Below, piece after piece: positions 9,741 to 27,176 of a stretch of 64,000 nt of DNA. This DNA comes from Limnothrix sp. CACIAM 69d. Lineage in GTDB: Bacteria; Cyanobacteriota; Cyanobacteriia; CACIAM-69d. The stretch spans positions 1 through 64,000 of the forward strand of contig MKGP02000097.1 of assembly GCA_001913845.2 (NCBI GenBank), written 5' to 3'. A program made the position numbers and the translations under genes. Under the pieces are notes generated by a model. The model had not been told where the DNA came from. It ran no database searches and worked only from the letters and a program-made list of their open reading frames with translations. How positions within the stretch are numbered: position 1 is the stretch's first letter; each line of letters starts with the position of its first letter.

Positions 9741-10487
9741 TCACTCAACCCAAAGATCGCCTTCCAGCTCTGGATCGGAGGTGGGCTGAGCCTCGCGGGC
9801 CGATCGCCCCGGGCCCGGATGGGGCGTTTCGCGGGTCAGATCCGTGGTGGGAGCGGGGGTATGGTCGGCTTGGAGATCGAATCGGGCGGGGGGTTCCGCC
9901 TGAGTTGGACAAACCACATAGGGTAAGGTTGCGCCCTTCAAGCCCCGTTGCAATCGTTCGGGCGATCGCTCCGACAGCAAAAACAGTGGATAGATCCGAT
10001 CGGCCCGATCGCCCACCACATGGCGGTAAGCCAGGGGCATCACCCATTCATAGTCGCGATCGAGCAGCAATTGCGTCTGTCGCCAGCGACTCATCAGCCC
10101 ATAAAAATCCTCATTGGGCCGATGGACAAACACAAACACCGCCACGCCCGTGGTCACCTGCCACTCGGGATCGCACATCAGGAGGGCAATCTCGCAGGGC
10201 AACCGCACCGCCTGCCTGCCCGGCTTGTTGGTCGATCGCTCGGATTCGATCGAATGGCGACGGCGCGATCGGCTCACATCGGCCACCTCGGCCAGTTGGG
10301 TCATTTCCAACACATCGGGATCGATCCGCGCCAACGGCAACGTAATCACCACGGTGCTGTCCAGGGGCCGCCGCATACTGGGCAACAGTTCCAAGTAGGG
10401 CCGATATTCCCGCAGCAGCTCGATCGCCGCCTGCCGCCCACTATAAGTCGCCAGAATTTCCTCATAGTCCGCAGACTTTATGGACAT
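9741..10487 (-). CDS. Conserved hypothetical protein, 248 residues
   Basis: Not recognised with confidence. The protein is soluble with no signal peptide or membrane helix. It opens with MSIKSADYEEILATYSGRQ, has a mixed alpha/beta core to about residue 195 (VVITLPLARIDP, GVAVFVFVHRP, YPLFLLSERS) and ends in a Pro/Thr/Glu-rich tail. Arg and Asp are frequent. It is upstream of and co-directional with sucC, 200 bp apart, so co-transcription is possible but unproven. It is the last ordinary gene before the IS remnants that open the cyanobactin island. Confidence 0.6.
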   Translation of the reverse strand: MSIKSADYEEILATYSGRQAAIELLREYRPYLELLPSMRRPLDSTVVITLPLARIDPDVLEMTQLAEVADVSRSRRRHSIESERSTNKPGRQAVRLPCEIALLMCDPEWQVTTGVAVFVFVHRPNEDFYGLMSRWRQTQLLLDRDYEWVMPLAYRHVVGDRADRIYPLFLLSERSPERLQRGLKGATLPYVVCPTQAEPPARFDLQADHTPAPTTDLTRETPHPGPGRSAREAQPTSDPELEGDLWVE

Positions 10488-10530: not shown

Positions 10531-10780
10531 GTTTGCCTGAGGGAATATCTGAAACGCAAAAAAGCTAACGATATCAGCCGGTTGTCATTAGATTTTGTCA
10601 CTAGATCAACAGATCGACTCAATAGACCCCGTTAGCCGTGTCTCTATCCTACCCAGGTGATTTGACTGATGACCAATGGCAACTCCGGGAAGCCCTGTTG
10701 CCCATCACATCAAGGCAAGTGGATGACCCCGCATAGCGGTGTATCACTACTTCGCCGTTTGGTGACGATGGCACTTTACC
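10531..10780 (+). pseudogene. IS5-like transposase 5' remnant (left border of cyanobactin island)
   Basis: From GTG 10638 the DNA reads VSLSYPGDLTDDQWQLREALLP, the start of an IS5-family (DUF4096-type) transposase, and stops after 32 residues (TAG 10734-10736). Right after, VYHYFAVW (about 10739-10762), a motif normally about 60 residues further on, appears and is again broken by TGA. The gene is therefore internally deleted and dead. The upstream part (10531-10637, including AAAAAAGCTAAC and TTGTCAtTAG) resembles 18005-18115 on the other side of the island. Confidence 0.75.
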
Positions 10781-10891
10781 ATCCACCTCAAAACAGGTCA
10801 AAACCCTTTTTCTGAGTGCCAAGGCGCTTGGTTCGCCTCAATGAATTGACGGGCAACCCTCGTCACTTCAGGACATTCCGATACCTGGCAC
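10781..10891. repeat. 111-bp direct repeat, copy 1 (3' end of Y1 transposase)
   Basis: Identical base for base to 11306-11416. On the minus strand it encodes the last 31 residues of the Y1 transposase (RCQVSECPEVTRVARQFIE...) plus 3' flank, but nothing upstream of that. It is a solo remnant fused directly to the dead IS5-like transposase. Confidence 0.95.
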
Positions 10892-10993
10892 TAGGTTGTT
10901 AGATCGCATTAGATCGCAAGGCTCCAAAACAGGCAACTGAATTATTTTTCTACTGCATTTGCCTGACCATTTTTGCTCTCTTTCACTGAGCTT

Positions 10994-11029
10994 GATTGCA
11001 TCAAAAATAAAGAAATTGTAGATGCAATC
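10994..11029. promoter_or_regulatory. 9-bp perfect inverted repeat upstream of the cyanobactin precursor
   Basis: GATTGCATC (10994-11002) and GATGCAATC (11021-11029) are separated by 18 A/T-rich bases and followed by CTTTTATACCC. It lies about 100 bp before the precursor start. It could be an operator or, with the short T-run, a weak terminator of upstream readthrough. A TTGACG at 11045-11050 is a possible -35 box but its -10 is poor. Confidence 0.4.
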
Positions 11030-11127
11030 TTTTATACCCTAGTCTTGACGATGCTGAATAAAGAGGGCTAGCTTCTCTGCAGTTCCTGATAGGAACAATG
11101 CCCCTCACTCAACTTGAGGCAAAGACC

Positions 11128-11289
11128 ATGAAGAAAGATCTGAAAGCGCTGATGCCGCAAACCGTGGCTCCCGTGCAGCGCGAAACTTCCGCGACTGTTT
11201 CTCGTGATGGGAATGCGATCACGCCCCATAAATACAGCCTGCAAGGGTTTGGGGTAATGATTCCTTTTGCGGGAGACGATGCGGAGTAA
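11128..11289 (+). CDS. Cyanobactin precursor peptide (AcyE/PirE/LimE type)
   Basis: 53-residue ribosomal precursor. The leader MKKDLKALMPQ..APVQRET matches the conserved cyanobactin leader pattern (M-x-K-K-N-L-x-P-Q-Q-x-A-P-V-x-R). The C-terminal tail is FAGDDAE, the recognition sequence I know from anacyclamide/piricyclamide-type precursors, directly after Pro46, the residue PatG-type macrocyclases need at P1. The core therefore ends ..GFGVMIP. Its N-border is not obvious and may lie between Pro33 and Gly40 (PHKYSLQ|GFGVMIP). No Cys lies in the core region, matching the absence of a heterocyclase. His34 and Tyr36 are candidate prenyl acceptors if inside the core. ATG 11128 is chosen over in-frame ATG 11098 because GAGG (11116-11119) precedes it by 8 nt and the leader then starts canonically. 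Confidence 0.9.
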   Translation: MKKDLKALMPQTVAPVQRETSATVSRDGNAITPHKYSLQGFGVMIPFAGDDAE

Positions 11290-11305
11290 CACGCCTCATT
11301 CTATC

Positions 11306-11416
11306 ATCCACCTCAAAACAGGTCAAAACCCTTTTTCTGAGTGCCAAGGCGCTTGGTTCGCCTCAATGAATTGACGGGCAACCCTCGTCACTTCAGGACA
11401 TTCCGATACCTGGCAC
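11306..11416. repeat. 111-bp direct repeat, copy 2
   Basis: Perfect copy of 10781-10891. Here it is the native 3' end of the Y1 transposase gene. The precursor gene lies in the 414 bp between the two copies. Confidence 0.95.
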
Positions 11417-12108
11417 CGGGTGGGGTCAGCCAGACGGTTGGGGTTGAGTCTTTCTCGACCCTCAACCTGGCTTTTTTCCCCACCTCCCCGACTGGATAAA
11501 CGAGCATCAGCCAGCAGGCGGCTACCCCAAGCATATTTCCTTGGCTCTTTAGACTTCGGCTTATATCGCTGACAAAAACCCTTGTATTTCTTGGCACATT
11601 CCTCCAAACTTCTGCCAAGTCGCAGAAAAGCTGGATGCCACTGGGTTAATCCATTATCAGTCAAGCGTTCGTAGCTGCCGTAGTTACCGAATTCATAGAA
11701 GAAGGTAGAACGCATTTTTGCCGCTTTTGGATTGCCGTGAATGTAACGCAGGGTATTTAAAGTTCTGTCTCGGTCGGTCGCCGGAAACCCATCGCAGAAA
11801 TACCGCTTTTCCCAAAAATGCCCCGTTCTTCCGAGCATCCGATTAAAACACATCGCCGTGTACCAATTGAGGAAGTGCATAATTTTCGGCAAATCTTCGG
11901 GTTCAGTGGGTTCCAGCAGGTAATGAACGTGGTTCGACATAATGCACAGCCCGTACAGCTTGAACCCGAACTTATCCAATGCCTTGCGAATGGCATAAAG
12001 AAACACCTCCCGACATTCTCGCCGCGATAGTTTAAACTCCCGATTGTTGCAGCGGGTTGTGATGTGATAAGCGTATCCCTGCTTGAAAATTCTCGGTTTT
12101 CTGGGCAT
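11323..12108 (-). CDS. Y1/HUH transposase inserted in the cyanobactin operon
   Basis: Single-strand transposase of the Y1 (IS200/RAYT-related) superfamily. Motifs: YHITTRCNNREF near the N-terminus, the HUH pair in MSNHVHYLLEP, WEKRYF and the catalytic Tyr in RYIHGNPKAAKM. A long basic C-terminal region (about 170-260) ends in the segment that is also duplicated at 10781. About 261 residues, apparently intact. The start is taken at M-PRKPRIF (12108); an in-frame ATG at 12120 adds four residues. It is read against the cyanobactin genes and sits between the precursor and the prenyltransferase, so it may uncouple their transcription. It is unrelated in detail to the smaller RAYT at 1300. Confidence 0.9.
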   Translation of the reverse strand: MPRKPRIFKQGYAYHITTRCNNREFKLSRRECREVFLYAIRKALDKFGFKLYGLCIMSNHVHYLLEPTEPEDLPKIMHFLNWYTAMCFNRMLGRTGHFWEKRYFCDGFPATDRDRTLNTLRYIHGNPKAAKMRSTFFYEFGNYGSYERLTDNGLTQWHPAFLRLGRSLEECAKKYKGFCQRYKPKSKEPRKYAWGSRLLADARLSSRGGGEKSQVEGRERLNPNRLADPTRCQVSECPEVTRVARQFIEANQAPWHSEKGF

Positions 12109-12162
12109 CGCTTTGTGCAAATTGTGAATGAGTGACTCATCAAAAAACGAAAGAGCAGCAAA

Positions 12163-13047
12163 GTGTTTAAGTCAACGATCGCACCAGAAGAAAAATTAAG
12201 ATATATTGGCAACCACAAACAAGCCTTTGATATCGAACCGCTCTATCCCCTCGCATTATTTGAAGAGTTTGTTGCCACGACAGGGGACTGTATAATCGAA
12301 TGTTCGGGCAAAATCAAACAAGACCAGCTTTACCCAGCACGAATCGATCTCCAGTTCTCCGACAAACACCATTTCCACAATATTCACACCTCTATTGACT
12401 TCCTAAAACGCGCTGCATCCAGAACCGATGTCAATCTCAATCTCGACATTCTTGCCACCTTTTTGGCAGGCAACTTTGACTACAGCAAAGTTCAAAATAT
12501 CCTCGCGGGCATCGATCTGCGTCAAAATCTTGGCGAATCCAAACTCAAACTCTTTATCCGCATTGGTGACTATCCCGCAAAAATGGCTGTGGCCAAGCAT
12601 CTCTGCAACATTACTCCAGAGTCCGAAGCCATGCTGCGATCGGATACTTTACACATCGGCTTTGACTTTTATTTAGATGGTCGTAGTGCGATCGAACTCT
12701 ATCCTGAATTAAAAAAAGATGAATTTAATCATCCTTTCATCTACAACCAGTTAAAAACAATACTGTCTCCTGAAGCTCTCAAGCCCTTGCCTCTTTGCAA
12801 TTTGTTTGGAATTGGTTTGAGTCCTGCCAATGAAGCCAATGTTCTCTACTACCATCTAGAAAATATTGAAGATTTTTTATCCTACTTTCCCATCAACGAC
12901 ACGGCTCGTCGAGTTCACGATTTTTATCTCCAACAAGAGGGTTCTAGAAGAATGTGGGTTGCCCTTTCAGAATCAGAGATGAAAGCGGGGAGAATTAACA
13001 ACGTGAATCTGTATTACAGCAAAGCTTTTACGAGCCAAAATCCCTAA
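12163..13047 (+). CDS. Cyanobactin prenyltransferase, PatF/LynF/TruF family
   Basis: ABBA-barrel peptide prenyltransferase family that adds dimethylallyl or geranyl groups to cyanobactin side chains or termini (PatF itself is inactive). Family hallmarks seen: N-terminal RYIGNHKQAFDIEPLYPLALFEEFV, AGIDLRQNLGESKLKLFIRI, HIGFDFYLDGRSAIELYPE, NVLYYHLEN, NDTARRVHDFY and the C-terminal NLYYSKAF. 294 residues, the normal length (about 300). The start is GTG 12163; the ribosome site is poor. The stop lies 13 nt before the PatA-like gene, so F and A are probably co-transcribed. Members differ in acceptor: Tyr, Trp, Ser/Thr, Arg, or His as reported for LimF from Limnothrix. Acceptor and donor here cannot be read from sequence by eye; LimF or a close relative is possible. 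Confidence 0.92.
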   Translation: MFKSTIAPEEKLRYIGNHKQAFDIEPLYPLALFEEFVATTGDCIIECSGKIKQDQLYPARIDLQFSDKHHFHNIHTSIDFLKRAASRTDVNLNLDILATFLAGNFDYSKVQNILAGIDLRQNLGESKLKLFIRIGDYPAKMAVAKHLCNITPESEAMLRSDTLHIGFDFYLDGRSAIELYPELKKDEFNHPFIYNQLKTILSPEALKPLPLCNLFGIGLSPANEANVLYYHLENIEDFLSYFPINDTARRVHDFYLQQEGSRRMWVALSESEMKAGRINNVNLYYSKAFTSQNP

Positions 13048-13060
13048 TCTCACTGAAGTT

Positions 13061-15043
13061 ATGAGTCAGAGTTTGGCGAAAGAATTAATTCCTGGTCTTC
13101 TGAGCTTACAAACCCGCACCCAAGGCTCTTCCGATATTCGTGTCGCCGTCCTCGATGGCATTGTCGATACCGACCATCCCTGCTTTGCTGGTGCCACCCT
13201 CAGCCGCCTCCCCACCCTCGCCCTGGGCAAAGCCACCACCGGGGCCATGTCCACCCACGGCACCCACATTGCCAGCCTGATTTTCGGGCAGCCCAACACC
13301 GAAGTTCCCGGACTCGCCCCCCACTGTCGCGGCATCCTCGCCCCCGTCTTCTCCGACGACAACCGCAAACTCTCCCAACTGGATCTCGCCCGCGCCATAG
13401 AACAAGCCGCCGAAGCCGGAGCGCACATCATCAACATCAGCGGTGGTGCACTCACCGATATTGGCGAAGCAGAAGACTGGCTCGATCGCGCCGTGCAAAC
13501 CTGCAAAGAACGCAACATCCTCATCGTTGCCGCCGCCGGAAACGATGGTTGCGACTGCCTGAATGTCCCCGCCGCCCTACCCGCCGTCCTCGCGGTTGGT
13601 GCAATGGATGCCAGAGGTCATCCCCTAGATTTCAGCAACTGGGGAGAAACCTACCAAAGCCAAGGCATTCTCGCCCCCGGTGAGAACATCCCCGGCGCTA
13701 GTCCCGGTGGTGGCATCATTCGGCTCAGTGGCACTAGCTTTGCCGCTCCCATTATCTCGGGTGTGGCTGCCCTGCTGCTGAGCCTTCAGGTGCAACGGGG
13801 CGACGACCCTAACCCCCAAGCGGTGCGGGATGCCATCCTCGCAACCGCTCTGCCTTGTCCCCTTGCCGACACCGAACACGATCGCAAATGTTTGGTCGGT
13901 GTTCTGAATATTCCTGGGGCTGTTCAAAAGTTAACCGGAGAAAAATTAATAGGAGTCAGTATGTCAGACAACCAAGATCAAAGCTTAGAAACCGCACTGA
14001 TAGAAGCCTCCGGTTGCAGTTGCGGCGGTTCCTCCCCACCCGTGGAAGAAGCAGAAGAAATTGTTTCTCCCCCACAGGAGCGCCAACCCGCCCTGGTAAC
14101 GGTCAGTGCGATCGAAACCCCTGTTAACGCCATTACTTCATCAGGAACCCCTATGCCCGAAACCACCAGCGCCCCCATCACCCCCAGCCAAGCTGCTGAA
14201 CCCGCTAATGGCATGGTTTACGCGATCGGTACTCTCGGTTACGACTTCGGCAGCGAAGCCCGCCGCGACACCTTCAAACAACTCATGCCACCCTACGCCA
14301 TTGAAGGAACGCAGATTCCCGCCAACCCCTACGATGCGCGGCAAATGGTCGATTACTTAGGGGAAAACCTATCAGAAACCAAATCGCTGATTTGGACGCT
14401 GAACCTGGAATTGACCCCGATTTATGCAATTGAGCCTACGGGTTCCTTCTCCCGTGAAGTCTATGCTGTCCTCCAAGGCCTCTTGGCAGGTCAGGTCGAA
14501 GCTGAAGACAGCCCAGACTACATTGAGCGGGTCAGCATTCCCGGCCTGATTACGGGTCGCACCGTGCGTCTGTTCTCTGGTCAAGTCGTCCCCGTCATCG
14601 AACCCCAAAGCCCACGTGGGATGTACGGCTGGCACGTCAACACCCTGGTAGATACCGCCCTAGAAGCCGTGGGTACCGAACAGGGCGGCGATGAAAGCCA
14701 AATGCGCCGCACGCTCAGCAGCTTCCTGAATCGGATTTATTACGATCTCCGCAACTTGGGCCAAACCTCCCAAGACCGCGCTCTCAACTTCGCTGCCACC
14801 AATGCGTTCCAAGCCGCCCAAACCTTCTCGGAAGCCGTTGGCGCGGGGATGGAACTGGACAGCATCAATGTGTCCAAGAGTCCCTTCTGTCGGATGGACA
14901 GCGATTGTTGGGACGTGCAACTGAAGTTCTTTGATCCGGAAAACAGCCGCCGCGCCAAGAAGGTCTTCCGTTTTACGATTGATGTGAGCGACCTCATTCC
15001 TGTCACCCTGGGCGAGGTGCGTTCCTGGTCGTCGCCTTACTAA
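13061..15043 (+). CDS. PatA-like cyanobactin leader protease (S8 subtilisin + cyanobactin DUF)
   Basis: Expected to cut the precursor at the N-side of the core. Subtilisin domain in residues about 1-285 with catalytic Asp32 (AVLDGIVD), His66 (STHGTHIASLIFGQ) and Ser226 (GTSFAAPIISG); the oxyanion Asn is in AAGNDGCDC. The Asp-to-His distance is short (34 residues), as in PatA, without the macrocyclase insertion. A Thr/Pro/Glu-rich linker with CSCGG (about 310-390) leads to the conserved C-terminal domain (about 395-660: YAIGTLGYDFGSEARRDTF, SLIWTLNLELTPIYAI, SPRGMYGW, FLNRIYYDLRNLGQ) shared by PatA and PatG and still without known function. 13 nt after the prenyltransferase gene, so translationally close. 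Call is firm for the family; PatA versus PatG role rests on the missing insertion. Confidence 0.93.
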   Translation: MSQSLAKELIPGLLSLQTRTQGSSDIRVAVLDGIVDTDHPCFAGATLSRLPTLALGKATTGAMSTHGTHIASLIFGQPNTEVPGLAPHCRGILAPVFSDDNRKLSQLDLARAIEQAAEAGAHIINISGGALTDIGEAEDWLDRAVQTCKERNILIVAAAGNDGCDCLNVPAALPAVLAVGAMDARGHPLDFSNWGETYQSQGILAPGENIPGASPGGGIIRLSGTSFAAPIISGVAALLLSLQVQRGDDPNPQAVRDAILATALPCPLADTEHDRKCLVGVLNIPGAVQKLTGEKLIGVSMSDNQDQSLETALIEASGCSCGGSSPPVEEAEEIVSPPQERQPALVTVSAIETPVNAITSSGTPMPETTSAPITPSQAAEPANGMVYAIGTLGYDFGSEARRDTFKQLMPPYAIEGTQIPANPYDARQMVDYLGENLSETKSLIWTLNLELTPIYAIEPTGSFSREVYAVLQGLLAGQVEAEDSPDYIERVSIPGLITGRTVRLFSGQVVPVIEPQSPRGMYGWHVNTLVDTALEAVGTEQGGDESQMRRTLSSFLNRIYYDLRNLGQTSQDRALNFAATNAFQAAQTFSEAVGAGMELDSINVSKSPFCRMDSDCWDVQLKFFDPENSRRAKKVFRFTIDVSDLIPVTLGEVRSWSSPY

Positions 15044-15154: not shown

Positions 15155-15361
15155 ATGGCACTTCCTAAACAATCTCCCCCAGTCAAACGCCCTCATTTCG
15201 TCCACATCCATGACTGTGTGGATGTCCTTCATGGTGGTGGTGAAGACCTGTTGAGCATTCGCATGGACATCATGCACGGCGCTAATTACAACGATCCGGC
15301 TCAGTTTCAATATCCGGCCTATGGCTACTTGAAAATGTCAGGACAAGGGCGTTCTTACTAG
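15155..15361 (+). CDS. PatB/AcyB-like cyanobactin small protein
   Basis: 68 residues. The motif RPHFVHIHDCVDVLHGG followed by DLLSIRMDI, GANYNDPAQFQYP and YGYLKM matches what I recall of the PatB/AcyB/McaB family, small proteins always found in cyanobactin clusters but dispensable or of unknown role in heterologous production. No signal peptide or membrane helix. It lies 111 bp after the PatA-like gene and 64 bp before the PatC-like gene. ATG 15155 has no clear ribosome site; no better in-frame ATG is visible upstream. Confidence 0.8.
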   Translation: MALPKQSPPVKRPHFVHIHDCVDVLHGGGEDLLSIRMDIMHGANYNDPAQFQYPAYGYLKMSGQGRSY

Positions 15362-15425: not shown

Positions 15426-15641
15426 ATGGCAAACGATAAAAAATCAAAAAAATCAGCCGAGCAAGTGGCCGAAACAGAGTCGGCTGAAACCAACGATCAA
15501 TCCTCAGAACCCAAAACCAAGAAGGAACCACAACCCTTGACAACCGGCTTGGAGGATTACGGTCGTTGGCGCACGTTTTACCAAGGCTACCAGCGCCCAA
15601 AGAACGAAAAACCGTTTCGGCGCGGCCGAATCTGGTGCTAA
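15426..15641 (+). CDS. PatC/TruC-like cyanobactin small protein
   Basis: 71 residues. A Lys/Ser/Glu-rich, probably disordered N-terminal half is followed by PLTTGLEDYGRWRTFYQGY and the terminal FRRGRIWC. This pattern and its position between B and G suggest the PatC/TenC/TruC family of unknown function. GGGAGA lies about 10 nt before ATG 15426. The identification depends on context and remembered family features, so it is less sure than the proteases. Confidence 0.7.
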   Translation: MANDKKSKKSAEQVAETESAETNDQSSEPKTKKEPQPLTTGLEDYGRWRTFYQGYQRPKNEKPFRRGRIWC

Positions 15642-15825: not shown

Positions 15826-17958
15826 ATGCCGAATCTAGCCGATATTTCTGGAATGTCTGCCTTGCGATCGCACACCCTTGGCGATCCGCGCATCAAAATT
15901 GCTGTGCTTGATGGGAAGGTTGATCTTGATCGGGCTTGCTTTCAAGGGGGAAATCTAACTCGAATTGATCCCTACTGGATCGAATCATTTGAAATCGACC
16001 CAGCTGATATTCAAGCCTTTGTTGAAATTGACCTCCATGCCAAAGCAGCAGGTCTCAGTGAGGAGGAATCGGGGAAGCTAATGGAAGCGGCTATCCCCGA
16101 TGAAAACATTCGCCGAAGTATTCACCTACAGAGTCATGCTGCCCACATCATCAGCACCATTTGCGGTCAACCCGGCTCTCCTGTCGAAGGTATTGCTCCT
16201 AGGGCAACAGTAATTAATATTCCTATTGCGGTTAATGGGGAAGATTTCATCAATCCTTTGAATCTATCTCGAGCTATTAGCACCGCGATCGAGCAGGACG
16301 TTAACATTATTCACTGTGCCGCTTGCCATCCTACCCAAAGTGGTATCGCCCACGAATTTATTGAAAAAGCTATTAAACAAGCGCAGGAAAATAATATTTT
16401 AGTCATTGCCCCAGGCGGTAACGATAAGGGTGAATGTTGGTGTATTCCGGCCGTCCTCGATCATGTGCTGACGGTCGGTGCGATGAAAGATACGGGCGAA
16501 CCATTTAAGTTCAGTAACTTTGGCGGTAAATACGCCAGCCAAGGCATTTTAGCCCCTGGTGAAAATGTTCTTGGTGCGCTACCGGGTACCGATATCCCCA
16601 TCCGCCAAAAAGGTACGAGCTGTGCTGCCCCGATCATTACAGGAACAGCCGCCCTCCTGATGAGTTTGCAATTGGAACAGGGTTTGGCTCCCGATGCAGA
16701 AGCGGTACGGGCAGCCTTGCTCAATAGTGCTATTCCCTGCGACCCGGAAACGACGGAAGAGCCAGAACGGTGCTTACTGGGCAGAATTAACATTGCCGGA
16801 GCCTATGAGTTAATTATGGGCACACCGTTGCAATACCAGCAGACGAAGGCTGAGGTGAGCAATCGCCCTGTGGATGATGACTCAGGGGTGGAAATTATTG
16901 CTCCGGAAACTGGTATTGACCAAGGCTATTTAGGCGTTAATAACCAATCTCATCTAACCGTAGTTTCTGAACCTAGTCCTAAAACTGCGATCGCTTCGCC
17001 GGAGGAGCAATTAGTGGTCGCTGCGGCTGTTCAATCCGCAGCGACCACAGCCAATGCAACAACGAATGTGATTTCGGCCACCCCGATCACGCCTTCTGCT
17101 GCCACCACTAGCCCTCGCTCCAACTTGGCTTACACCCTTGGGACGATTGGATATGATTTTGGCACTGAGGCCCGGCGTGACACCTTTAAACAATTTATGC
17201 CGGCCGCTACGGTAGGGAATGTCCAGATTCCTGCCAATCCCTATGATGCCCGTCAAATGGTGGACTATCTGGACGAAAATCTCTTTGAAGCAAAATCACT
17301 GATTTGGACACTTAATCTAGAGCTAACTCCGGTGTATGCCATTCAACCCGTAGGAGCTTTTGGGGCAGAGATCTATGAGATTTTGACCTACTTGCTGGGT
17401 GGGCAAGTATTAGCGGAGGATGATGATAACTATATCGAGCGAGTCAGTATACCGGGAATTGTGATCAACGAAACGGTGCGCCTCTTTTCTGGTCAGGAAG
17501 TACCAATTTTGAAGGTTAATAGTCCGCGTGGAATGTATGGCTGGAAAGTCAATTCATTGGTGGAATCGGCCTTGCAGACGGTTAGTGCCAATCAAGCAGT
17601 TGCTGATGAGAGTCGAATGCGACGATCACTGACTAGTTTTCTTAATCGGGTTTACTATGACCTGCGAAACTTGGGACAATTGGCGCGCGATCGGGCACTG
17701 AACTTTGCAGCAACAAATGCCTTCCAAGCTGTCCAGACTTTTTCAGAGGCTGTAGCCCAGGGAATGGAGTTAGCAGATATTGAAGTTGAGAAAAGTCCAT
17801 TCTGTCGCTATGGCAGCGAGTGCTGGGACGTAAAATTGAAGTTTTTTGACCCTGACAATGGACGGCGAGCCAAGCGGATTTTTCGATTCACGATTGATGT
17901 GAGTGATCGAATGCCAGTCACTCTTGGTAAGGTGCGATCGTGGGCTGTGTCTAAGTAG
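15826..17958 (+). CDS. PatG-like cyanobactin macrocyclase (S8 + cyanobactin DUF), no oxidase domain
   Basis: Expected to remove FAGDDAE and join the peptide ends. Subtilisin-type domain: catalytic Asp29 (AVLDGKVD), His104 and Ser265 (GTSCAAPIITG). Between Asp and His there are 75 residues instead of 34 in the PatA-like paralogue; this extra helical segment (about 48-97) corresponds to the capping helices that let PatG exclude water and macrocyclise. The usual HGTH box is HAAH here. A linker (about 330-430) leads to the conserved C-terminal domain (YTLGTIGYDFGTEARRDTF onward), closely similar to that of the PatA-like protein. The N-terminal FMN oxidase of PatG is absent, consistent with no azolines. 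The 184-bp gap upstream contains TTGACT (near 15750) and may hold a separate promoter. Start ATG 15826. Confidence 0.92.
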   Translation: MPNLADISGMSALRSHTLGDPRIKIAVLDGKVDLDRACFQGGNLTRIDPYWIESFEIDPADIQAFVEIDLHAKAAGLSEEESGKLMEAAIPDENIRRSIHLQSHAAHIISTICGQPGSPVEGIAPRATVINIPIAVNGEDFINPLNLSRAISTAIEQDVNIIHCAACHPTQSGIAHEFIEKAIKQAQENNILVIAPGGNDKGECWCIPAVLDHVLTVGAMKDTGEPFKFSNFGGKYASQGILAPGENVLGALPGTDIPIRQKGTSCAAPIITGTAALLMSLQLEQGLAPDAEAVRAALLNSAIPCDPETTEEPERCLLGRINIAGAYELIMGTPLQYQQTKAEVSNRPVDDDSGVEIIAPETGIDQGYLGVNNQSHLTVVSEPSPKTAIASPEEQLVVAAAVQSAATTANATTNVISATPITPSAATTSPRSNLAYTLGTIGYDFGTEARRDTFKQFMPAATVGNVQIPANPYDARQMVDYLDENLFEAKSLIWTLNLELTPVYAIQPVGAFGAEIYEILTYLLGGQVLAEDDDNYIERVSIPGIVINETVRLFSGQEVPILKVNSPRGMYGWKVNSLVESALQTVSANQAVADESRMRRSLTSFLNRVYYDLRNLGQLARDRALNFAATNAFQAVQTFSEAVAQGMELADIEVEKSPFCRYGSECWDVKLKFFDPDNGRRAKRIFRFTIDVSDRMPVTLGKVRSWAVSK

Positions 17959-18004: not shown

Positions 18005-18115
18005 GGTTAGAGAATGTTTGAAATGTTTGAGAAGTAAAAAAAGCTAACTTCGTTAGCTTGTCATTGATCAACTCAACAGACTCCATTAGTCATGTCTCTA
18101 ACCTACCCAGTCGCA
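18005..18115 (+). mobile_element. IS5-like left-end remnant, right border of cyanobactin island
   Basis: Carries the same elements in the same order and orientation as 10531-10660: an AATGTTTGAAA-like terminus, AAAAAAGCTAAC, TTGTCATT, GATCAAC, TCAACAGACTCC, then ATG TCT CTA ACC TAC CCA (MSLTYP), the transposase N-terminus. After six matching codons the similarity ends and a stop follows within 12 codons (18094-18132). Confidence 0.65.
18036..18059 (-). terminator. Rho-independent terminator downstream of pilC
   Basis: Read on the minus strand: an 8-bp perfect stem AAGCTAAC/GTTAGCTT, loop GAA, then a run of T (seven A on the plus strand, 18036-18042). It lies 160 bp beyond the pilC stop. The hairpin is built from the IS remnant, so the pil operon may use a terminator supplied by a mobile element. 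Confidence 0.7.
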
Positions 18116-18221
18116 AGAACCATCTGCTAGAAGAATTTGCCCGAAAGAAATCCGCCTGAAGTTTTGATGATCGATCGCTTTGCCTTGGAGTTTTGATGGT
18201 TAATAGCGTTGCCTTGCAGCA

Positions 18222-19481
18222 CTACTTAATCGCATCCATTACCGCAAAGATGGGCAAATACATCGCCAACAAAATCGAACCAACCATCCCCCCAATCACC
18301 ACAATCATCAACGGCTCCAACATACTGGTTAGACCCTTGATTGCTTGCTCCACTTCATCTTCATAGAAGTCCGCCACCTTCATCAACATTTTGTCGAGTT
18401 CCCCGGTTTCCTCACCAATCATCATCATCTGAATGGCCATGGCCGGAAAGACCTTATAGCGCTCGATCGCCGCACTGATCGTCCCCCCACCTTGAATTTC
18501 GGCAATGGAGGAAGCCACCGCATCCGAAACCACCTGGTTATCGGCGGTGTCTTTACAAATTTCGAGGGCTTGAATAATGGGCACACCCGATCGCGTCAAG
18601 GTCCCAAAGGTGCGGCAAAAACTAGCCACCGAGCTTTTCTGAATGATGTCTCCAAAAATCGGCAACTTCAGAAATACGGCATCCATTTGGCGCTTGCCAG
18701 CCGGTGTTTTGTACCACAGGTCATAGACAACTTTCCCGATGACCAAGGCAATGACCAAAAACACCACATAGAAATTCTTGCGCCCCTTGGGATCATCGTC
18801 GGGGAAGGTGGGGCCACGCAAAAACTCACTGATATTAATCATGATTTGCGTGAACGCCGGCAATTCAGCCCCCAACTTGTCGAAAATTCCCGTAAAGGTT
18901 GGCAGCAGGAAAATGGTCATTCCCAAAAAGATAATGACCGCCAAGGATCCGACCGTGGAGGGATAGGACATGGCGGACTTAATTTGGTTTTGCAGCCGGG
19001 CGGCATTTTCCAGCAGGGTTGCCAGTCGGGTGAGCACTTCATCGAGCACCCCCCCAATTTCACCCGCTTCCACCATGGCGCAATAGAGCTTACTGAAGAT
19101 GTCGCCGTGTCGTTTCAGCGAAGAAGATAGGGTTTCCCCTTCTTGCACATCAGCATTGATTTTAAATAGGGCTTTTTTCAGTTTGGGATTTTCACATTGA
19201 TTGCTCAAAATATCCAAACATTTCACCATGGCAATGCCCGCATTAAACATGGCGGAAAATTGCCGAGAAAACACAGCCAAATCCTTTACGGTCACGCTGG
19301 CCGTGAGGCTAGCGAGGTCAATGTCTAGGCCGCTTTTCTGTTCCTTGAGATCGCGAATTTGGGCTTGGCTAAACCCAGCGGCAATCAGTTTATTACGCGC
19401 CCCGTTGATGCTTTCTGCTTCAACAACTTCGCGCTTGCCTTTGCCGTCGGGGCCAGCGATGGTGGCGATGAATTTAGCCAT
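18222..19481 (-). CDS. pilC: Type IV pilus inner-membrane platform protein PilC
   Basis: Platform on which PilB and PilT drive pilus assembly and retraction. 419 residues with two T2SSF domains (about 75-195 and 280-400): LAVFSRQFSAMFNAGIAMVKCLDIL with EAGEIGGVLDEVLTRLA, repeated as SFCRTFGTLTRSGVPIIQALEI with GEETGELDKMLMKVADFYEDEV. Membrane helices are at about 170-195, 225-245 and near the C-terminus (MIVVIGGMVGSILLAMYLPIF). Last gene of the minus-strand set pilB-pilT-pilC, 210 bp after pilT. Typical length and order for cyanobacteria. Confidence 0.95.
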   Translation of the reverse strand: MAKFIATIAGPDGKGKREVVEAESINGARNKLIAAGFSQAQIRDLKEQKSGLDIDLASLTASVTVKDLAVFSRQFSAMFNAGIAMVKCLDILSNQCENPKLKKALFKINADVQEGETLSSSLKRHGDIFSKLYCAMVEAGEIGGVLDEVLTRLATLLENAARLQNQIKSAMSYPSTVGSLAVIIFLGMTIFLLPTFTGIFDKLGAELPAFTQIMINISEFLRGPTFPDDDPKGRKNFYVVFLVIALVIGKVVYDLWYKTPAGKRQMDAVFLKLPIFGDIIQKSSVASFCRTFGTLTRSGVPIIQALEICKDTADNQVVSDAVASSIAEIQGGGTISAAIERYKVFPAMAIQMMMIGEETGELDKMLMKVADFYEDEVEQAIKGLTSMLEPLMIVVIGGMVGSILLAMYLPIFAVMDAIK

Positions 19482-19691
19482 AGGGCGCTGCTCAAACTAC
19501 GTGAGTCCTCAGAATTCTGTCGAGAGTCCGTTGCCAGAGGTGGCGGCAGGGTTGGGAAGCGATCGGGCTGGGGATGGGGGCGATCGCCCGAGGGGTTTAC
19601 CGAGCGATCGCCCCGTCCGTTGCCATGGGTTGATCGGTTATCCACCCGATCGGTTGTGTCGCATTAGTGATGTCGCAGTGATGCGGCGTTC

Positions 19692-20780
19692 CTAGCGACC
19701 AGCACCCACCTTGCCCCCCAGCAACCGCTGTAGCTCGTCGGGTTTGGAGCTTTTGCCCAGGGCATCTTCGTAGGTGATCTTGTTTTCTTGGTATAGCTTC
19801 GCCAGGCAAGATTCCATGGTTTGCATCCCCTGCTTACCGCCCATTTGAATGGTGGAATAGATTTGCGAGGTTTTGCCCTCCCGAATCAGGTTCGCCACAG
19901 CGGGGGTATTCAGCATAATTTCGTGTGCTGCACAGCGACCGCCCCCAACTTTCTTGACCAAGTTTTGTGAGCAAACCCCCACGAGGGAGTTGGCCATCTG
20001 GGCCCGGACTTGGGGCTGTTGGATGGGGGGAAACACGTCCAAAATCCGGTCGATCGTCCCGGCGGCGGAGTTGGTGTGCAGGGTTCCGAAAACCAAGTGA
20101 CCGGTTTCAGCGGCGGAGATGGCCAAGGAAATGGTTTCCAAGTCCCGCATTTCCCCCACCAGAATGATATCCGGGTCTTCCCGCAGCGCTGCCTTCAGGG
20201 CGTTGGCAAAACTCTTGGTGTCTTCGCCCTTTTGCCGCTGGTGGAACAGGCTTTTCATGTTCGGGAACACATACTCGATCGGGTCTTCCACGGTTAGGAC
20301 ATGCTCCGCGCGGGTGCGGTTGATGTAGTCCAGGCAGGCGGCCAGGGTGGTGGTTTTGCCGGATCCCGTTTGCCCCGTGATCAGCACCATGCCCCGGGGC
20401 CGCTCCGCCATCTCCAGCAGCACCTGGGGCAAACCGAGTTTTTCAAAGTTGGGAATTTGGGAAGCCAGGGCCCGCAAACAGGCGGCCCAGCAGCCCCGCT
20501 CGCGATAGACATTCACCCGGAACCGCGACAGGCCCTTCACCCCATAGGCGCAGTCCAATTCCCAGTTTTGCTCCAGGTCTTTCCGCTGGTTGTTGTTGAG
20601 CATACTGAAAATCAGCTTTTGGCAGTCCTGGGAGTCGAGCACTTCGCCAAATTGCGGTTGGGGGGTCAGTTTGCCGCTAATCCGAAAATAGATGGGCGCA
20701 CCGGCTTGGATATGCATGTCGGAGCCGCCTTGTTCGATCAGCGATTCCATCACGTCTTCGATCATGTAATCCAGTGGCAT
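19692..20780 (-). CDS. pilT: Type IV pilus retraction ATPase PilT
   Basis: Hexameric ATPase that depolymerises pili for twitching and phototactic movement and DNA uptake. 362 residues. Walker A GQTGSGKTT (about 135), Asp box (VEDPIEYVF), Walker B (DIILVGEMRD), His box (TGHLVFGTLHTN) and the PilT C-terminal region around AHEIMLNTPAVANLIREGK (the AIRNLIRE-like motif needed for retraction). N-terminal PAS-like part starts MPLDYMIEDVMESLIEQGGSDMHI. Start ATG 20780. It lies between pilB (269 bp upstream) and pilC. Confidence 0.96.
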   Translation of the reverse strand: MPLDYMIEDVMESLIEQGGSDMHIQAGAPIYFRISGKLTPQPQFGEVLDSQDCQKLIFSMLNNNQRKDLEQNWELDCAYGVKGLSRFRVNVYRERGCWAACLRALASQIPNFEKLGLPQVLLEMAERPRGMVLITGQTGSGKTTTLAACLDYINRTRAEHVLTVEDPIEYVFPNMKSLFHQRQKGEDTKSFANALKAALREDPDIILVGEMRDLETISLAISAAETGHLVFGTLHTNSAAGTIDRILDVFPPIQQPQVRAQMANSLVGVCSQNLVKKVGGGRCAAHEIMLNTPAVANLIREGKTSQIYSTIQMGGKQGMQTMESCLAKLYQENKITYEDALGKSSKPDELQRLLGGKVGAGR

Positions 20781-21049
20781 GGTCGCTACTCCTGTCGAGT
20801 GAGGTTAGGTCGAATGGGGATCGAATGAGGGGTCGATCGAATGGGGGTCGATCGGGATCAAAACGCTGGCAGGGCCCGAAAAGTTGGCAGGGTTTGAACA
20901 ATTCGAGCGGGGCCAACCATGGGGAAACGTCGAAACCGGGGATGAATTCAGCCTTGAACTTGGCCTGAAGATGCCCAATTGGGCGGGCGATCGTATCAAG
21001 ATCGCATTCCCTGCCAACCGGCGAGCCAGTCATGGGCGATCGCCAAAAG

Positions 21050-23080
21050 CTAGCGACCAGTCACCAACGGCTCTTCAAACCGAGGCGTGAGGCAATAGGG
21101 ACAGTCCATCCAGTCTGGCTGGAGTTCTGCCGCGCAGGTGCGACAGGTGAGAGCGCTCTTGCGCTTGGCCTTCAGTTCCGCTTCTAGCCCGGTGTCGGTG
21201 AAGGTGACCCGTTCCACTTCTTCAAAGGTGGTCAGCCCTTCTCGCACCAGATCTAGACTGTAGGCCAACAGGGTGACCATCCCTTCTTCAACGGCGGCCT
21301 CTTTAATGCGATCGGTTGGGGCCCCTTGGGTAATCAGGTTTTGCAAGGTTTCCGTTACTTGCAAAACCTCATAAACCCCGCAACGGCCCTTATAGCCCAC
21401 ACCGCCACACTTGGGACAAAGTTTGCCCATTTCGCCCAGGGTCTTGCGCTCATCGGGCGACACCACATTGGCCTTGTAGAAGGTCAGATGGGATTCTTGG
21501 TTGGCGCTCATGCCGTAGCGGGCCAACTCTTCGGAGGCGGGGGTGTAGGGCACGCGGCATTCGCTGCAAACGCGCCGCATCAGCCGCTGGGCCACCACGC
21601 CCAATAGGGCCCCTGCCACCATGAAAGGTTCCACGCCCATTTCATCCAAACGGGCGATCGCCCCGGATGCGTCGTTGGTGTGCAGGGTGGTTAACACCAA
21701 GTGACCCGTGAGGGCCGCCTCGATCGCCGTTTTTGCCGTTTCCTTGTCCCGCGTCTCACCCACCAGAATCACATCCGGGTCTTGGCGCAGGAATGCCCGC
21801 AGGATCCGCGAAAAGTCCAGCCCCTTTTCCCGAATCACCTGCACCTGGGTAATCCCGGGCAAGGCATATTCGATCGGGTCTTCGGCGGTACTGATGTTGA
21901 TGCCCGGGTCGTTCCGTTCCGCCAAAATGGAGTAGAGCGTGGTGGACTTCCCGGAACCCGTCGGCCCCGTCACCAAAATCAAGCCAAAGGGGCGGCTGGC
22001 CATCTCTCGCACCAACTGCAACGATTCCGGCCGGCCAATCAGCTTATCCAGACCCAGTTGTGTTGAGGAGTTATCCAAAATCCGCAACACAATCTTCTCG
22101 CCGTAGCGACTGGGTAGCACATTGACCCGAAAGTCCACTTTCCGCCCTTCAAAGACCCGGCGAATCCGCCCATCCTGGGTGTCCCGTCGTTCGGCAATGT
22201 CCAGGTTGGAAATGATTTTGAACCGGGAGGTTACGGCCGGAACCACCTTTTTCGGGAGCCGGAACACCTCTTGCAGCACCCCATCCTTGCGGAACCGAAT
22301 CCGCATTTCTTCCTCTTGGGGTTCCACATGAATATCCGAAACGCCGTCTTGCAGGGCCTTAATCAAGACCTTGTTCACCAGGTTGACGATCGGCCCCGAC
22401 TCCGCATCGTTCATGGAGCTGGCCAGGTCGTCCGTCTCCAATTCGTCGGAAGCCTCTTCCATTTGCATGGCTTCGAGGTTCTGCAAATCCGACTCATCGA
22501 AACTGACGGCGGCGGAAGTTTGGCGGGAAGCCTGTTGGGACTTGCGAGCCGCTTCGTCTAGGTATTGGCTAATGATGGCCTGGTAGTCTTCGGGAGCAAT
22601 CACCCGCCGAATCAGGGCCAAGTTTTGGGGCCGCAGGATGCGATTCAAATCATCCAGCGCATCTAGGTTATCCGGGTCGGCCATAGCCACCATCATGGCC
22701 GGCGAGTCGCCCCGCTGGGCCCGCCCCAGGGGCAGCAACCGATAGCGACGGCAAACATCCACCGGAATCAGGGTTTCAATGCATTGCTCCACCTGGGCTG
22801 CGGACACCTCTTCAATTTCCGGGTCGATCGCCTCAACCCCGTGGAGAATTTTGAGTTCAAACAGCAGTTGCTTTTTGTACTGGCGCACCAATTCCGGCGG
22901 CACTTCTTTGCCGGCGATCGCTGCCAGCACTTCCATCAGCGGTCGGCCCGACTGGCGGTGTTCAGCCAAAGCGCGGCTCATTTGGTCGGGATCCACATAG
23001 CCCGACTGCACAAGTTTGTTACCGAAGGGCGAAAAATTGCTTTGGACAACCAGGGCGCGCCGGTTTATGGAGTTTGTCAT
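21050..23080 (-). CDS. pilB: Type IV pilus assembly ATPase PilB with C-terminal zinc ribbon
   Basis: Hexameric ATPase powering pilus extension. N-terminal MshEN-type domains (about 20-180), an acidic linker (about 185-225), then the GspE/PilB motor: Walker A GPTGSGKST, Walker B DVILVGETRD, His box TGHLVLTTLHTNDA. A tetracysteine insert lies near 565 (CSECRVPY...CPKCGGVGYKGRCG). The C-terminus carries an extra zinc-ribbon-like motif CRTC..CPYC (last 30 residues), which the standard proteobacterial enzyme lacks. ATG 23080 is preferred (MTNSINRRALV); a GTG at 23092 would add four residues and overlaps its own AGG. First gene of the pil operon. Confidence 0.95.
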   Translation of the reverse strand: MTNSINRRALVVQSNFSPFGNKLVQSGYVDPDQMSRALAEHRQSGRPLMEVLAAIAGKEVPPELVRQYKKQLLFELKILHGVEAIDPEIEEVSAAQVEQCIETLIPVDVCRRYRLLPLGRAQRGDSPAMMVAMADPDNLDALDDLNRILRPQNLALIRRVIAPEDYQAIISQYLDEAARKSQQASRQTSAAVSFDESDLQNLEAMQMEEASDELETDDLASSMNDAESGPIVNLVNKVLIKALQDGVSDIHVEPQEEEMRIRFRKDGVLQEVFRLPKKVVPAVTSRFKIISNLDIAERRDTQDGRIRRVFEGRKVDFRVNVLPSRYGEKIVLRILDNSSTQLGLDKLIGRPESLQLVREMASRPFGLILVTGPTGSGKSTTLYSILAERNDPGINISTAEDPIEYALPGITQVQVIREKGLDFSRILRAFLRQDPDVILVGETRDKETAKTAIEAALTGHLVLTTLHTNDASGAIARLDEMGVEPFMVAGALLGVVAQRLMRRVCSECRVPYTPASEELARYGMSANQESHLTFYKANVVSPDERKTLGEMGKLCPKCGGVGYKGRCGVYEVLQVTETLQNLITQGAPTDRIKEAAVEEGMVTLLAYSLDLVREGLTTFEEVERVTFTDTGLEAELKAKRKSALTCRTCAAELQPDWMDCPYCLTPRFEEPLVTGR

Positions 23081-23751
23081 AGCAGGTGACACCTAGCGGG
23101 ATCGAAGGCGCATCGATCGGGCGATCGGGCGCGAGGAGCGAAACGGACGGGCAATCAATTCAGCTACAGGGTCCAACTCAGCTACAGCATGACCAAGGTA
23201 TACCCCGGTCTACCTCCCGAAAACAACAGCCCGCAGCCACGCACCTCCAAGGATCGAAGCTGGATCCTGAAGCTGGATGCCTAGGAATTACAGGCATTGA
23301 CACTGATTGGTTTTTGGGCCATGGTTTTGAGTTTTGGGCCATGGTTTCGAGCCTGTTCTTGGGCCGGTTTCAGGGTTGGTTGGCGGGTCATGCAAAGCCA
23401 ATGGATCAAAACCAAATCAATCCTAAGCTAAAGGTCTCGGGAAAGCTCGCATCTAGAGCTTGCATCTGAGGGAGGGGCCCGGGCGGGAAATGTTCGATTC
23501 GGCCGGGTGGCGTTCTAACATAGGTTGAGCCTGTGCGGGTCACTGTCCGGGCAGCCCTGCGGGACAGGTGGGTGATGGGCAATCTGCACTTCAGCGAGCA
23601 CTGGAGTGGTGAGAGCCACCCACGGGCGATCGCCCCGATTAGGCCAATTTGCACAGGTCAGGAAATTTGACTGTTGTTGGACGGTTGATTGTCAACACTC
23701 AACAAGAACTCAACAAAAACTCCATTGTGATCACTAGCTAGCGAGGAACCA
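23081..23751. other. 671-bp divergent spacer between pilB and grpE
   Basis: Promoters for both operons should lie here. I see TTGACTGTTG...GATTGTCAA (about 23669-23697), which has inverted TTGAC/GTCAA ends, about 55 bp before grpE. No CIRCE element (TTAGCACTC) is visible. No convincing gene; the longest frames are not family-like. Confidence 0.4.
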
Positions 23752-24486
23752 ATGACCTACAGCCCTGAAGAGAACCTGACGGAAGACAATGCCTCGGTGA
23801 ATGACCCGGCCCCCGAAGCGGCAGTAGAAACCCCGGCCGCCGAAGCGCCGACCCCCGAAGCCGCCACCCCCGAAACCAGCGCCACCGAGGAAGCACCGGC
23901 CACCCTGGATGACCTGGACTTGTCTGAGTTGGAAGAACCGGCAGCCGAAGGAACCTATGGGCCAAAGGTGGCGGACTTGCTGCGGGAAATTGAGGGCTTG
24001 AAGGGGCAACTGGACGATCGCACCGGCCAGCACATGCGTTTAACGGCTGACTTTGAGAACTTCCGCCGCCGCACCGCTAAAGAGCGCGAGGAATTGGAGT
24101 TGCGGATTCGCTGCGATACGATCCGCGAGCTGTTGTCCGTTATTGATAACTTTGAGCGGGCCCGATCGTTCATCAAGCCCCAAACCGATGGGGAATTGAA
24201 TCTGCACAAGAGCTATCAGGGTATTTATCGCCAGTTGGTGGACAGCCTGAAGCGGTTAGGGGTGGTGAAAATGCGCCCCGAGGGCCAGGAATTTGACCCG
24301 AACTTGCATGAGGCGGTGATGCGGGAGCCGTCCAATGAGCATCCGGAAGGCACGGTGCTGGAGCAGTTGCAGGATGGTTATCTGTTGGGCGATCGGGTGT
24401 TGCGCCATGCCATGGTGAAAGTTGCCGCTCCCGGTGAGCCTGTGGTAGCGTCTGAGGACAACGACCAGGCCGCTTCTGAGTCCTAA
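23752..24486 (+). CDS. grpE: GrpE, nucleotide-exchange factor of DnaK
   Basis: Releases ADP from DnaK. 244 residues: a long acidic Ala/Pro/Glu-rich N-terminal tail (1-70), a coiled-coil helix (about 80-130: LTADFENFRRRTAKEREELE), then the four-helix and beta-wing head (DSLKRLGVVKMRPEGQEFDPNLHEAVMREPSNEHPEGTV segment, which includes the GrpE signature). The tail is longer than in E. coli but usual in cyanobacteria. First of the co-directional chaperone set grpE-dnaK-dnaJ. Confidence 0.95.
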   Translation: MTYSPEENLTEDNASVNDPAPEAAVETPAAEAPTPEAATPETSATEEAPATLDDLDLSELEEPAAEGTYGPKVADLLREIEGLKGQLDDRTGQHMRLTADFENFRRRTAKEREELELRIRCDTIRELLSVIDNFERARSFIKPQTDGELNLHKSYQGIYRQLVDSLKRLGVVKMRPEGQEFDPNLHEAVMREPSNEHPEGTVLEQLQDGYLLGDRVLRHAMVKVAAPGEPVVASEDNDQAASES

Positions 24487-24974
24487 GGGCCGCCGGATGA
24501 GCAATGGCGCACCCGTTGGGCCCGGGGTCAATGATGATTCAGCGATGGCCCTGGGGCAATCGCCTCGGTTATCGATTCGTGATCGGCTAATCGATCGTCC
24601 CATCATCGATCGTCCCAGGCTCTGGCCCAACGGCTCCGGGTATGGTTCCGGGTTTAGTGCTGATGTGGTGGCCTCCTCTTCAGCCCAGTTTCGTCATTGG
24701 CTCTACCTGGCAATTTGTTCTAGCAGCTTGTTCTAGAAGTTTGGGTTCTGACCGTTGGGGTTCCAAAAAAAATTCGAGTTCCGGCACTCTCAGCTCTCGA
24801 TCTTAAAGTTTTAGAAATTGAGCTTGAAACTATTCATCGCCGGGTTGCGGTGTGTTTGTTCCGAAAACCGGTCAATATGAAGGCCAATGGAAACCGCCTG
24901 GGTATTGATGAGGTATCGATCAATCTTGCCGTTATGGGGATGATTGAACCGCTGCTGCCATTGAGTTGAAAACT
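24487..24974. other. Spacer and likely dnaK promoter region
   Basis: 488 bp between grpE and dnaK. It contains a short duplication (atcgatcgtccc, twice, about 24592-24616) and a repeated TTGTTCTAG (about 24715-24735). The last 150 bp are less GC-rich. No CIRCE and no gene seen. Confidence 0.35.
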
Positions 24975-27176
24975 ATGGGAAAAGTTATCGGGATCGATCT
25001 TGGCACGACCAATAGCTGCGTCGCCGTTCTGGAAGGCGGCCAAGCGATCGTCATTCCCAACTCGGAGGGGGCCCGCACCACTCCCAGCATTGTCGGGTTT
25101 GGCAAGGGGGGCGAACGGTTGGTGGGGGAGCTGGCCAAACGGCAGGCGGTCACCAACGCCGAAAACACGGTCTTTAGCATCAAGCGTTTTATCGGTCGTC
25201 GTTGGAATGAAACCGACTCCGAGCGGCGTGTCATGCCCTACACCTGTGTGGCCGGGCGCGATGAGACCGTGGATGTGAAAATTCGCGACCAGTCCTACAC
25301 GCCCCAGCAGATTTCTGCCATGGTGCTGAACAAGCTGAAGCAGGACGCGGAGACTTACCTGGGGGAGGCGGTCACCCAAGCGGTGATCACGGTTCCTGCC
25401 TATTTCACCGATGCCCAGCGCCAGGCCACGAAGGATGCGGGCCAGATTGCGGGTCTGGAAGTGCTGCGGATCGTGAATGAACCGACGGCGGCGGCTTTGG
25501 CCTACGGTGTTGACAAGCAGGATGTCGATCGGGCGGTGCTGGTGTTTGACCTGGGCGGCGGCACGTTTGATGTGTCGGTGTTGCAACTGGGGGATGGGGT
25601 TTTTGAAGTGAAGGCCACGGCCGGGAATAACCACCTGGGGGGCGATGACTTTGATAACTGCATCATTAGCTGGGCGATCGAAGAGTTCAAGGCGATCGAG
25701 GGCATTGACCTGCTCGAAGACAAGATGGCCCTCCAGCGCCTGCGGGAAGCGGCAGAGCGGGCCAAAATTGAACTGTCCGGTTCCCCAACCACCTCCTTGA
25801 ACCTGCCGTTTATCACCGCCGACGAAACGGGGCCCAAGAATTTGGAAATGGAGCTGACCCGCACCAAGTTTGAAGAACTGGTGGCACACTTGGTGCAGGC
25901 CACGCTCGACCCGGTGGATCAAGCCATTCGGGATTCGGGCCTTTCGCCCGATCAGATTGATCGCATCATTTTGGTGGGGGGTTCCACTCGCATTCCCGCC
26001 GTCCAACAGGCCGTCAGCGCTCGGTTTGCGGGTCGTCAGCCCGATCGCTCCGTGAATCCCGATGAGGCCGTGGCCCTGGGGGCCGCCATCCAAGCAGGGG
26101 TCTTGGGCGGCGAAGTGCAAAACCTGCTGTTGCTGGACGTGACTCCCCTGTCCTTGGGGTTGGAAACGCTGGGGGGCATGTTTACGCGGATTGTCGATCG
26201 CAACACCCCGATTCCCACCTGCCGATCGCAAGTCTTTTCCACCGCGATCGATGGTCAAACCTCCGTGGAAATCCATGTGGCCCAAGGGGAGCGGGCCATG
26301 GTTGCCGACAACAAGAGCCTTGGCCGATTCCTGCTAACCGGCATTCCCCCCGCTCCCCGCGGCCTGCCACAGATTGAAGTCTCCTTTGAAATCGACGCTG
26401 ACGGAATCCTCAAGGTCTCCGCCGTGGACAAAGGCACGGGCCAAAAACAAAGTATCCGGATCACCAATACCGGTGGTCTGTCCACGGAAGAAGTGGAGCG
26501 GATGCGGCAGGATGCGGAAAAATTTGCAGATCTCGATCGCAACCGACGGCAGCGCGTGGATCTGAAAAACCAGATCGATAGCCTGATGTATAGCTATGAA
26601 TCGGCACTCCAAAGCAATGCCGATTTGATCGATGATTCGTTGCGCCAAGTGCTGAAAACCCAGGCTGACACCCTTGGGCGATTGGATAGCGACCCAGAAG
26701 CACGCTTTGAGGATTTACAATCGGCGTTCAATGCACTTCAGGAATCCCTGCTCTCGGTGGGTAAACGGGCTTATCAGAATTCGGACGCTGCCAACAAGCC
26801 CCCATCTTCCCCGCAATTCCCATCCCCCGCTCCCGCTCCTTCCGTGACGGGGCCAACCAGTTCAGCATTCAGTTCCCCCCCGATCGCCTCCACCCCGGTC
26901 ACAGCGCCGCCCGGGACTCCCGTGGCCACCAGTCCCGCGCCTGTCAGCGTCCCCAGCCCCAGCCCGGTTCCGGCGGTCACCCCTGCTGCGCCTGCGGTGA
27001 ACCTGTTGGCCAATGGGGATGGGAATAGCCTTTCGATGCCGGAATTGAGTGTGGATCCGCCGTCCCCGATCGCCTCGATCGCCCTCACGGATTTGGGCAT
27101 TGAGTTACCGGACGATGACGATTCGGAATACGATGACTCCACGATCGCGGCCGACTACGAGGCGATCGAGGACTAA
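24975..27176 (+). CDS. dnaK: Hsp70 chaperone DnaK
   Basis: ATP-driven chaperone. Nucleotide-binding domain in residues 1-385 ([44 protein letters not shown]), hydrophobic linker in [18 protein letters not shown], substrate-binding domain to about 505 and a helical lid to about 610. The last 120 residues are Pro/Ala/Ser/Thr-rich and end acidic ([18 protein letters not shown]). At 733 residues it is about 95 longer than E. coli DnaK; extended tails are known in cyanobacterial DnaK2/DnaK3-type proteins. ATG 24975 ([10 protein letters not shown]) is chosen over TTG 24966. The neighbouring grpE and dnaJ support a stress role. Confidence 0.95.

Follow-up and report, generated by a model that had tools for sequence, protein, structure and literature searches.

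A histidine-free predicted core in LimE, the cyanobactin precursor encoded beside the geranyltransferase LimF in Limnothrix sp. CACIAM 69d

Introduction

The window analyzed here is a 64-kb stretch of the Limnothrix sp. CACIAM 69d genome in which a short cyanobactin precursor gene lies close to the gene of a geranyltransferase known to act on histidine. The question raised by this locus is where the core peptide of the precursor begins, and whether the histidine near that border belongs to the core or to the leader. We compared the precursor with its relatives, examined the surrounding cluster, and weighed the possible substrates of the enzyme.

Results

The precursor gene

The open reading frame encodes a peptide of 53 aa, MKKDLKALMPQTVAPVQRETSATVSRDGNAITPHKYSLQGFGVMIPFAGDDAE, followed by a stop codon. 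The NCBIfam profile TIGR04446 (anacyclamide/piricyclamide family prenylated cyclic peptide) recognizes this peptide with 69.4 bits (2.3e-19; cut-off, 35 bits), as does Pfam PF19158 (DUF5840) with 53.8 bits (cut-off, 25 bits). Three traits of TIGR04446-type precursors are found in it: a KKNxxPxxxxPVxR-like leader motif, a Pro-ended core, and the FAGD tail. The DNA pattern encoding FAGDD occurs once in the window versus 0.02 occurrences expected. The start of the leader, MKKDLKALMPQTVAPVQR, differs slightly from the Microcystis leaders and is two residues longer. An earlier note, made from the DNA letters alone, had described a cyanobactin precursor with FAGDDAE after Pro46, which the translation and the family profile matches confirm. 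Its placement of the C-terminal border between Pro46 and Phe47 is also supported, as the P/FAGDDA junction is invariant in the family. A GLEAS-type site is indeed absent, as the note stated, but precursors of the TIGR04446 type use none; their leaders carry another conserved pattern, commonly (I/L)(T/A)P-X, ahead of the core. Judged by its sequence, the reading frame is a real gene for an anacyclamide/piricyclamide-type precursor. It is limE, which went by the name pirE3 in the 2018 publication and encodes the substrate in the published lim/piricyclamide cluster. The features of the locus are listed in Table 1.

Table 1. Positions of limE, its predicted parts, and surrounding features in the 64-kb window
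Feature	Position	Strand	Evidence
limE (pirE3), cyanobactin precursor	11128..11289	+	TIGR04446 69.4 bits, PF19158, translation
Predicted leader, residues 1-34, ending GNAITPH	11128..11229	+	PVxR + 17 spacing as in six relatives
Predicted core, residues 35-46, KYSLQGFGVMIP	11230..11265	+	Spacing and family-invariant P/FAGDDA
Follower / C-terminal recognition sequence FAGDDAE	11266..11286	+	Invariant in aligned family save last residue
115-bp copy of transposase 3' end, upstream of limE	10777..10891	.	99% identical to 11302-11416
Partner copy of the 115-bp repeat, downstream of limE and overlapping transposase 3' end	11302..11416	.	Repeat comparison
REP-associated (IS200-like) tyrosine transposase between E and F	11323..12120	-	PF01797 63.5 bits; PMC6256058
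limF, His-C / Tyr-O geranyltransferase	12163..13047	+	7vmw/7vmy identity, TIGR04445 308 bits, activity PMC11002830
limA, N-terminal protease (PatA-like subtilase)	13061..15043	+	TIGR03895 911 bits; PDB 4h6w 5.5e-121
limB (PatB/AcyB/McaB family, unknown function)	15155..15361	+	TIGR04220 115 bits
limC (PatC/TenC/TruC family, unknown function)	15426..15641	+	TIGR04447 44 bits, cut-off 30
limG, macrocyclase (PatG-like)	15826..17958	+	TIGR03895 844 bits; PDB 4h6x 1.9e-99
Whole lim/pir island, absent in same-genus genome	10542..18128	.	Alignment with genome G001

Cluster content and LimF

The genes are arranged in the order E, RAYT transposase, F, A, B, C, and G, with E, F, A, B, C, and G all on the plus strand. 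F, A, B, C, and G each score above the cut-off of their own family, and their reading frames are intact. The best PDB match of LimA is 4h6w, an N-terminal cyanobactin protease. That of LimG is 4h6x (PatG macrocyclase domain), and the match spans the catalytic Asp-His stretch absent from LimA. No oxidase domain was found in LimG with Pfam and NCBIfam profiles, and the island contains neither a heterocyclase (D) nor any further long coding-strand reading frame. The cluster is a complete one of the heterocyclase-less cyanobactin type, with A, B, C, E, F, and G present. The transposase also matches NF047646 with 56 bits, under the cut-off of 80. An Rfam search over the island gave no match, and a promoter and terminator scan of 10750-12250 gave nothing clearly above shuffled sequences.

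The F protein is LimF of PDB 7vmw/7vmy; 294 of 294 residues align and are identical, save for the GTG start codon, which appears as V in the PDB entries. PDB 8je4 is a two-residue variant of LimF. The source of LimF is Limnothrix sp. CACIAM 69d (RFP52075.1; PMC11002830), and the enzyme geranylates C2 of His and also the oxygen of Tyr (PMC11002830, PMC10373908). The earlier note had mentioned LimF as an F-family enzyme of Limnothrix that modifies His, which is correct but understated, since the neighboring enzyme is LimF itself. A LimF search of a collection of genome contigs found no relative. The G+C content of limF is 42%, compared with 55.5% in the window and 58% in the adjoining limA, and limF may have a separate origin.

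The 2018 publication of the CACIAM 69d cluster describes a single pirE3, separated from pirF by an IS200-like transposase (PMC6256058). Because LimF is identical and the single precursor and the transposase position are the same, the locus is already published, and limE is a known gene. Against the cluster as described in PMC6256058 and, for LimF, as Zhang et al. 2022 is relayed in PMC11002830, no difference in gene content was found; for the N-terminal border of the core, we argue from relatives.

Comparison with related clusters

The lim cluster of Limnothrix sp. BL-A-16 is of the same type, and the leaders and recognition sequences of its limE1, limE2, and limE4 are reported to equal those of the CACIAM 69d precursors, but it has four limE copies with different cores (PMC12341861). 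The Microcystis piricyclamide (pir) cluster likewise consists of E, F, A, B, C, and G with no D or oxidase, and Microcystis-type leaders such as ENTATVSRDGNAIAP-X resemble the LimE leader, whereas it has one to four precursors and other cores (PMC3428304). Compared with Microcystis pir, the CACIAM 69d cluster is without the extra hypothetical genes and has the transposase (PMC6256058). The sphaerocyclamide (sph) and anacyclamide (acy) clusters contain a TIGR04446 precursor like LimE, and sph also has a transposase between E and F; differences are the sph core AQGVSYFP, which bears a single prenyl group on Tyr, and a bidirectional gene order (PMC6162287).

Island and neighboring genes

A same-genus genome (G001, locus L051) aligns with the window at 95% identity on both sides of the island: the alignment stops at 10541 and resumes at 18129, and in G001 only 58 bp (L051 10198-10255) separate the two parts. 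In that genome, there was no LimF match, no precursor match, and no A/G protease above the family cut-off. This empty site shows the cluster to be a discrete insertion of about 7.6 kb, bordered by a conserved gene (9741-10487) on one side and by pilC on the other. Direct repeats of 45 bp (84% identical) lie near both island ends at 10612-10656 and 18066-18110. The left repeat leads into the start of a putative IS4/5 transposase; the match is weak, at only 13 bits, and we regard it as a lead and not a finding.

The genes pilC, pilT, pilB, grpE, and dnaK (18222-27176) adjoin the cluster. The pilus and chaperone genes beside the cluster have been proposed to form an export system, limH-L (PMC12341861). 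However, dnaK, grpE, pilB, pilT, and pilC lie in the same order at the empty position in three genomes (G001, G002, and G005), and pilB, pilT, and pilC are likewise beside it in a fourth (G003). Finding these genes where the cluster is missing speaks for ancestral neighbors and weakens the limH-L proposal. Cyanobacterial pilus and DnaK genes have a role in motility and polysaccharide secretion (PMC9239167). Peptide export borrowing the pilus machinery may still be compatible with ancestral pil and dnaK genes.

N-terminal border of the core

Precursors were gathered from 386 genomes of the phylum and from named genomes, and were aligned in register on PVxR. The scan of the named genomes gave 27 loci; a second L008 row in the leader table is a regex artefact that reads through a stop. 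In all six relatives with published cores, the core starts at the Arg of PVxR + 17. The cores ILGEGEGWNYNP and TFCDLATKQCYP were detected by LC-MS, and the latter was also produced in E. coli, whereas GWGTFCVGEDGDGNCEEWYELP, WVNRRIP, TVFDYTVP, and SWNIDWEYYGLSFPLSP were predicted from genes (PMC3428304). The nearest leaders, of the form ENTATVSRDGNAIAP-X, align with LimE without a gap after PVQR, and the two extra residues of LimE precede the motif. Applied to LimE, the spacing places the cut between His34 and Lys35 and leaves a core of 12 aa that contains Tyr36 and no histidine. Because PVxR + 17 is kept in the six relatives, we infer that the N-terminal border is His34/Lys35. The earlier note had left this border open and had allowed His34 in the core; the relatives bear out neither point, as their spacing leaves His34 in the leader.

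The published precursor lengths (PirE1, 48; PirE2, 53; PirE3, 51; SphE, 47 aa, with a SphE core of 8; PMC3428304, PMC6162287) fit a 32-residue leader, the core, and a 7-residue tail, with cores of 9, 14, and 12 residues for PirE1-3, if these genes are correctly paired with their cores by length. The spacing is not universal, because some farther relatives (e.g., L015, L055, L079, and L080) have leaders of other lengths. A literature search, which did not reach the original LimF paper, found no LimE core sequences.

Predicted product and prenylation

By homology, LimA would cleave the precursor after His34, and LimG would cut off FAGDDAE after Pro46 and join Lys35 to Pro46, giving cyclo(KYSLQGFGVMIP). 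LimF would then geranylate this ring, most likely at the Tyr36 oxygen, because the predicted core has no His. The earlier suggestion of a His or Tyr prenyl group thus holds for Tyr36, which stays in the core, and not for His34, which lies outside it. The computed [M+H]+ values are 1321.697 for cyclo(KYSLQGFGVMIP) and 1457.823 with one geranyl group. We consider this reading as a whole (limE, the predicted His34/Lys35 cut, the 12-residue ring, and geranylation likeliest on Tyr36) to be highly probable, given the observed identities of the gene and the enzyme, the cluster content, and the leader spacing in relatives. Against it stand the other leader lengths of some farther relatives and the reported activity of LimF, which, as Zhang et al. 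2022 is cited in PMC11002830, C-geranylates His on the cyclic substrate predicted for it; a core that contains no His leaves this activity unexplained.

Alternative explanations

This reported activity would be accounted for if the core started at His34 (HKYSLQGFGVMIP, 13 aa) or at Pro33 and LimF C-geranylated His34; the ring from His34 would have a computed [M+H]+ of 1458.756, or 1594.881 when geranylated. LimF is a His-C-geranyltransferase (PMC11002830), and a His sits right at the border. Such a start, however, would break the spacing of all six relatives with no leader indel as an excuse. Moreover, a His just ahead of the core is unremarkable, because the residue at this position varies among the known relatives (L, Q, A, and M) and the Pseudanabaena precursor L055 has LTPH at the same point. 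We therefore regard a core that includes His34 as improbable. It is far more doubtful still that the reading frame is spurious or a dead remnant; transposase and repeat debris surrounds limE, but the leader, core, and tail are intact, the family score is twice the cut-off, and the full enzyme set has intact frames. As to sequence, the intact parts and the family score led us to reject this candidate.

Several limE units with near-identical leaders and the 115-bp repeat may instead have been collapsed in the assembly, with the His-bearing substrate of LimF coming from another limE, which is compatible with a Tyr36-geranylated product of the copy described here. Both limE1 and limE3 are spoken of in CACIAM 69d, and the four limE of BL-A-16 were missed by short-read assembly (PMC12341861); unassembled copies are also allowed for in PMC6256058. 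In addition, the 115-bp repeat on either side of limE could be the cause of such a collapse. On the other hand, limE is the only TIGR04446 gene found in the assembly (4,572,073 bases, 100 contigs), where profile, protein, and FAGDDA-pattern searches revealed no second precursor or fragment, and the sequence preceding the upstream repeat does not derive from limE. Collapsed copies are a serious possibility, although we lean slightly against them. RNA folding of the downstream repeat gave z = -1.9.

Discussion

Our preferred reading remains that the assembled limE encodes a precursor cut at His34/Lys35. It can be suggested, tentatively, that the only limE of the assembled genome has a His-free core whose natural product is a Tyr-O-geranylated ring of 12 residues, and that the His chemistry of LimF either serves an unassembled limE or is for the most part a side activity that happened to be found first. 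A locus of Pseudanabaena sp. UBA1465 (L055) contains five precursors, and some of their predicted cores have His, e.g., HYGIDNRGIMIP; this locus may be worth searching for more F enzymes that modify His. For limH-L, proposed for lim export, the evidence points to ancestral neighbors. In searches of MS data, the masses expected for the native lim peptide would shift to the two values computed for the His-free ring, replacing the His-containing values, and the native substrate of LimF, a His-geranylating biocatalyst, deserves a check.
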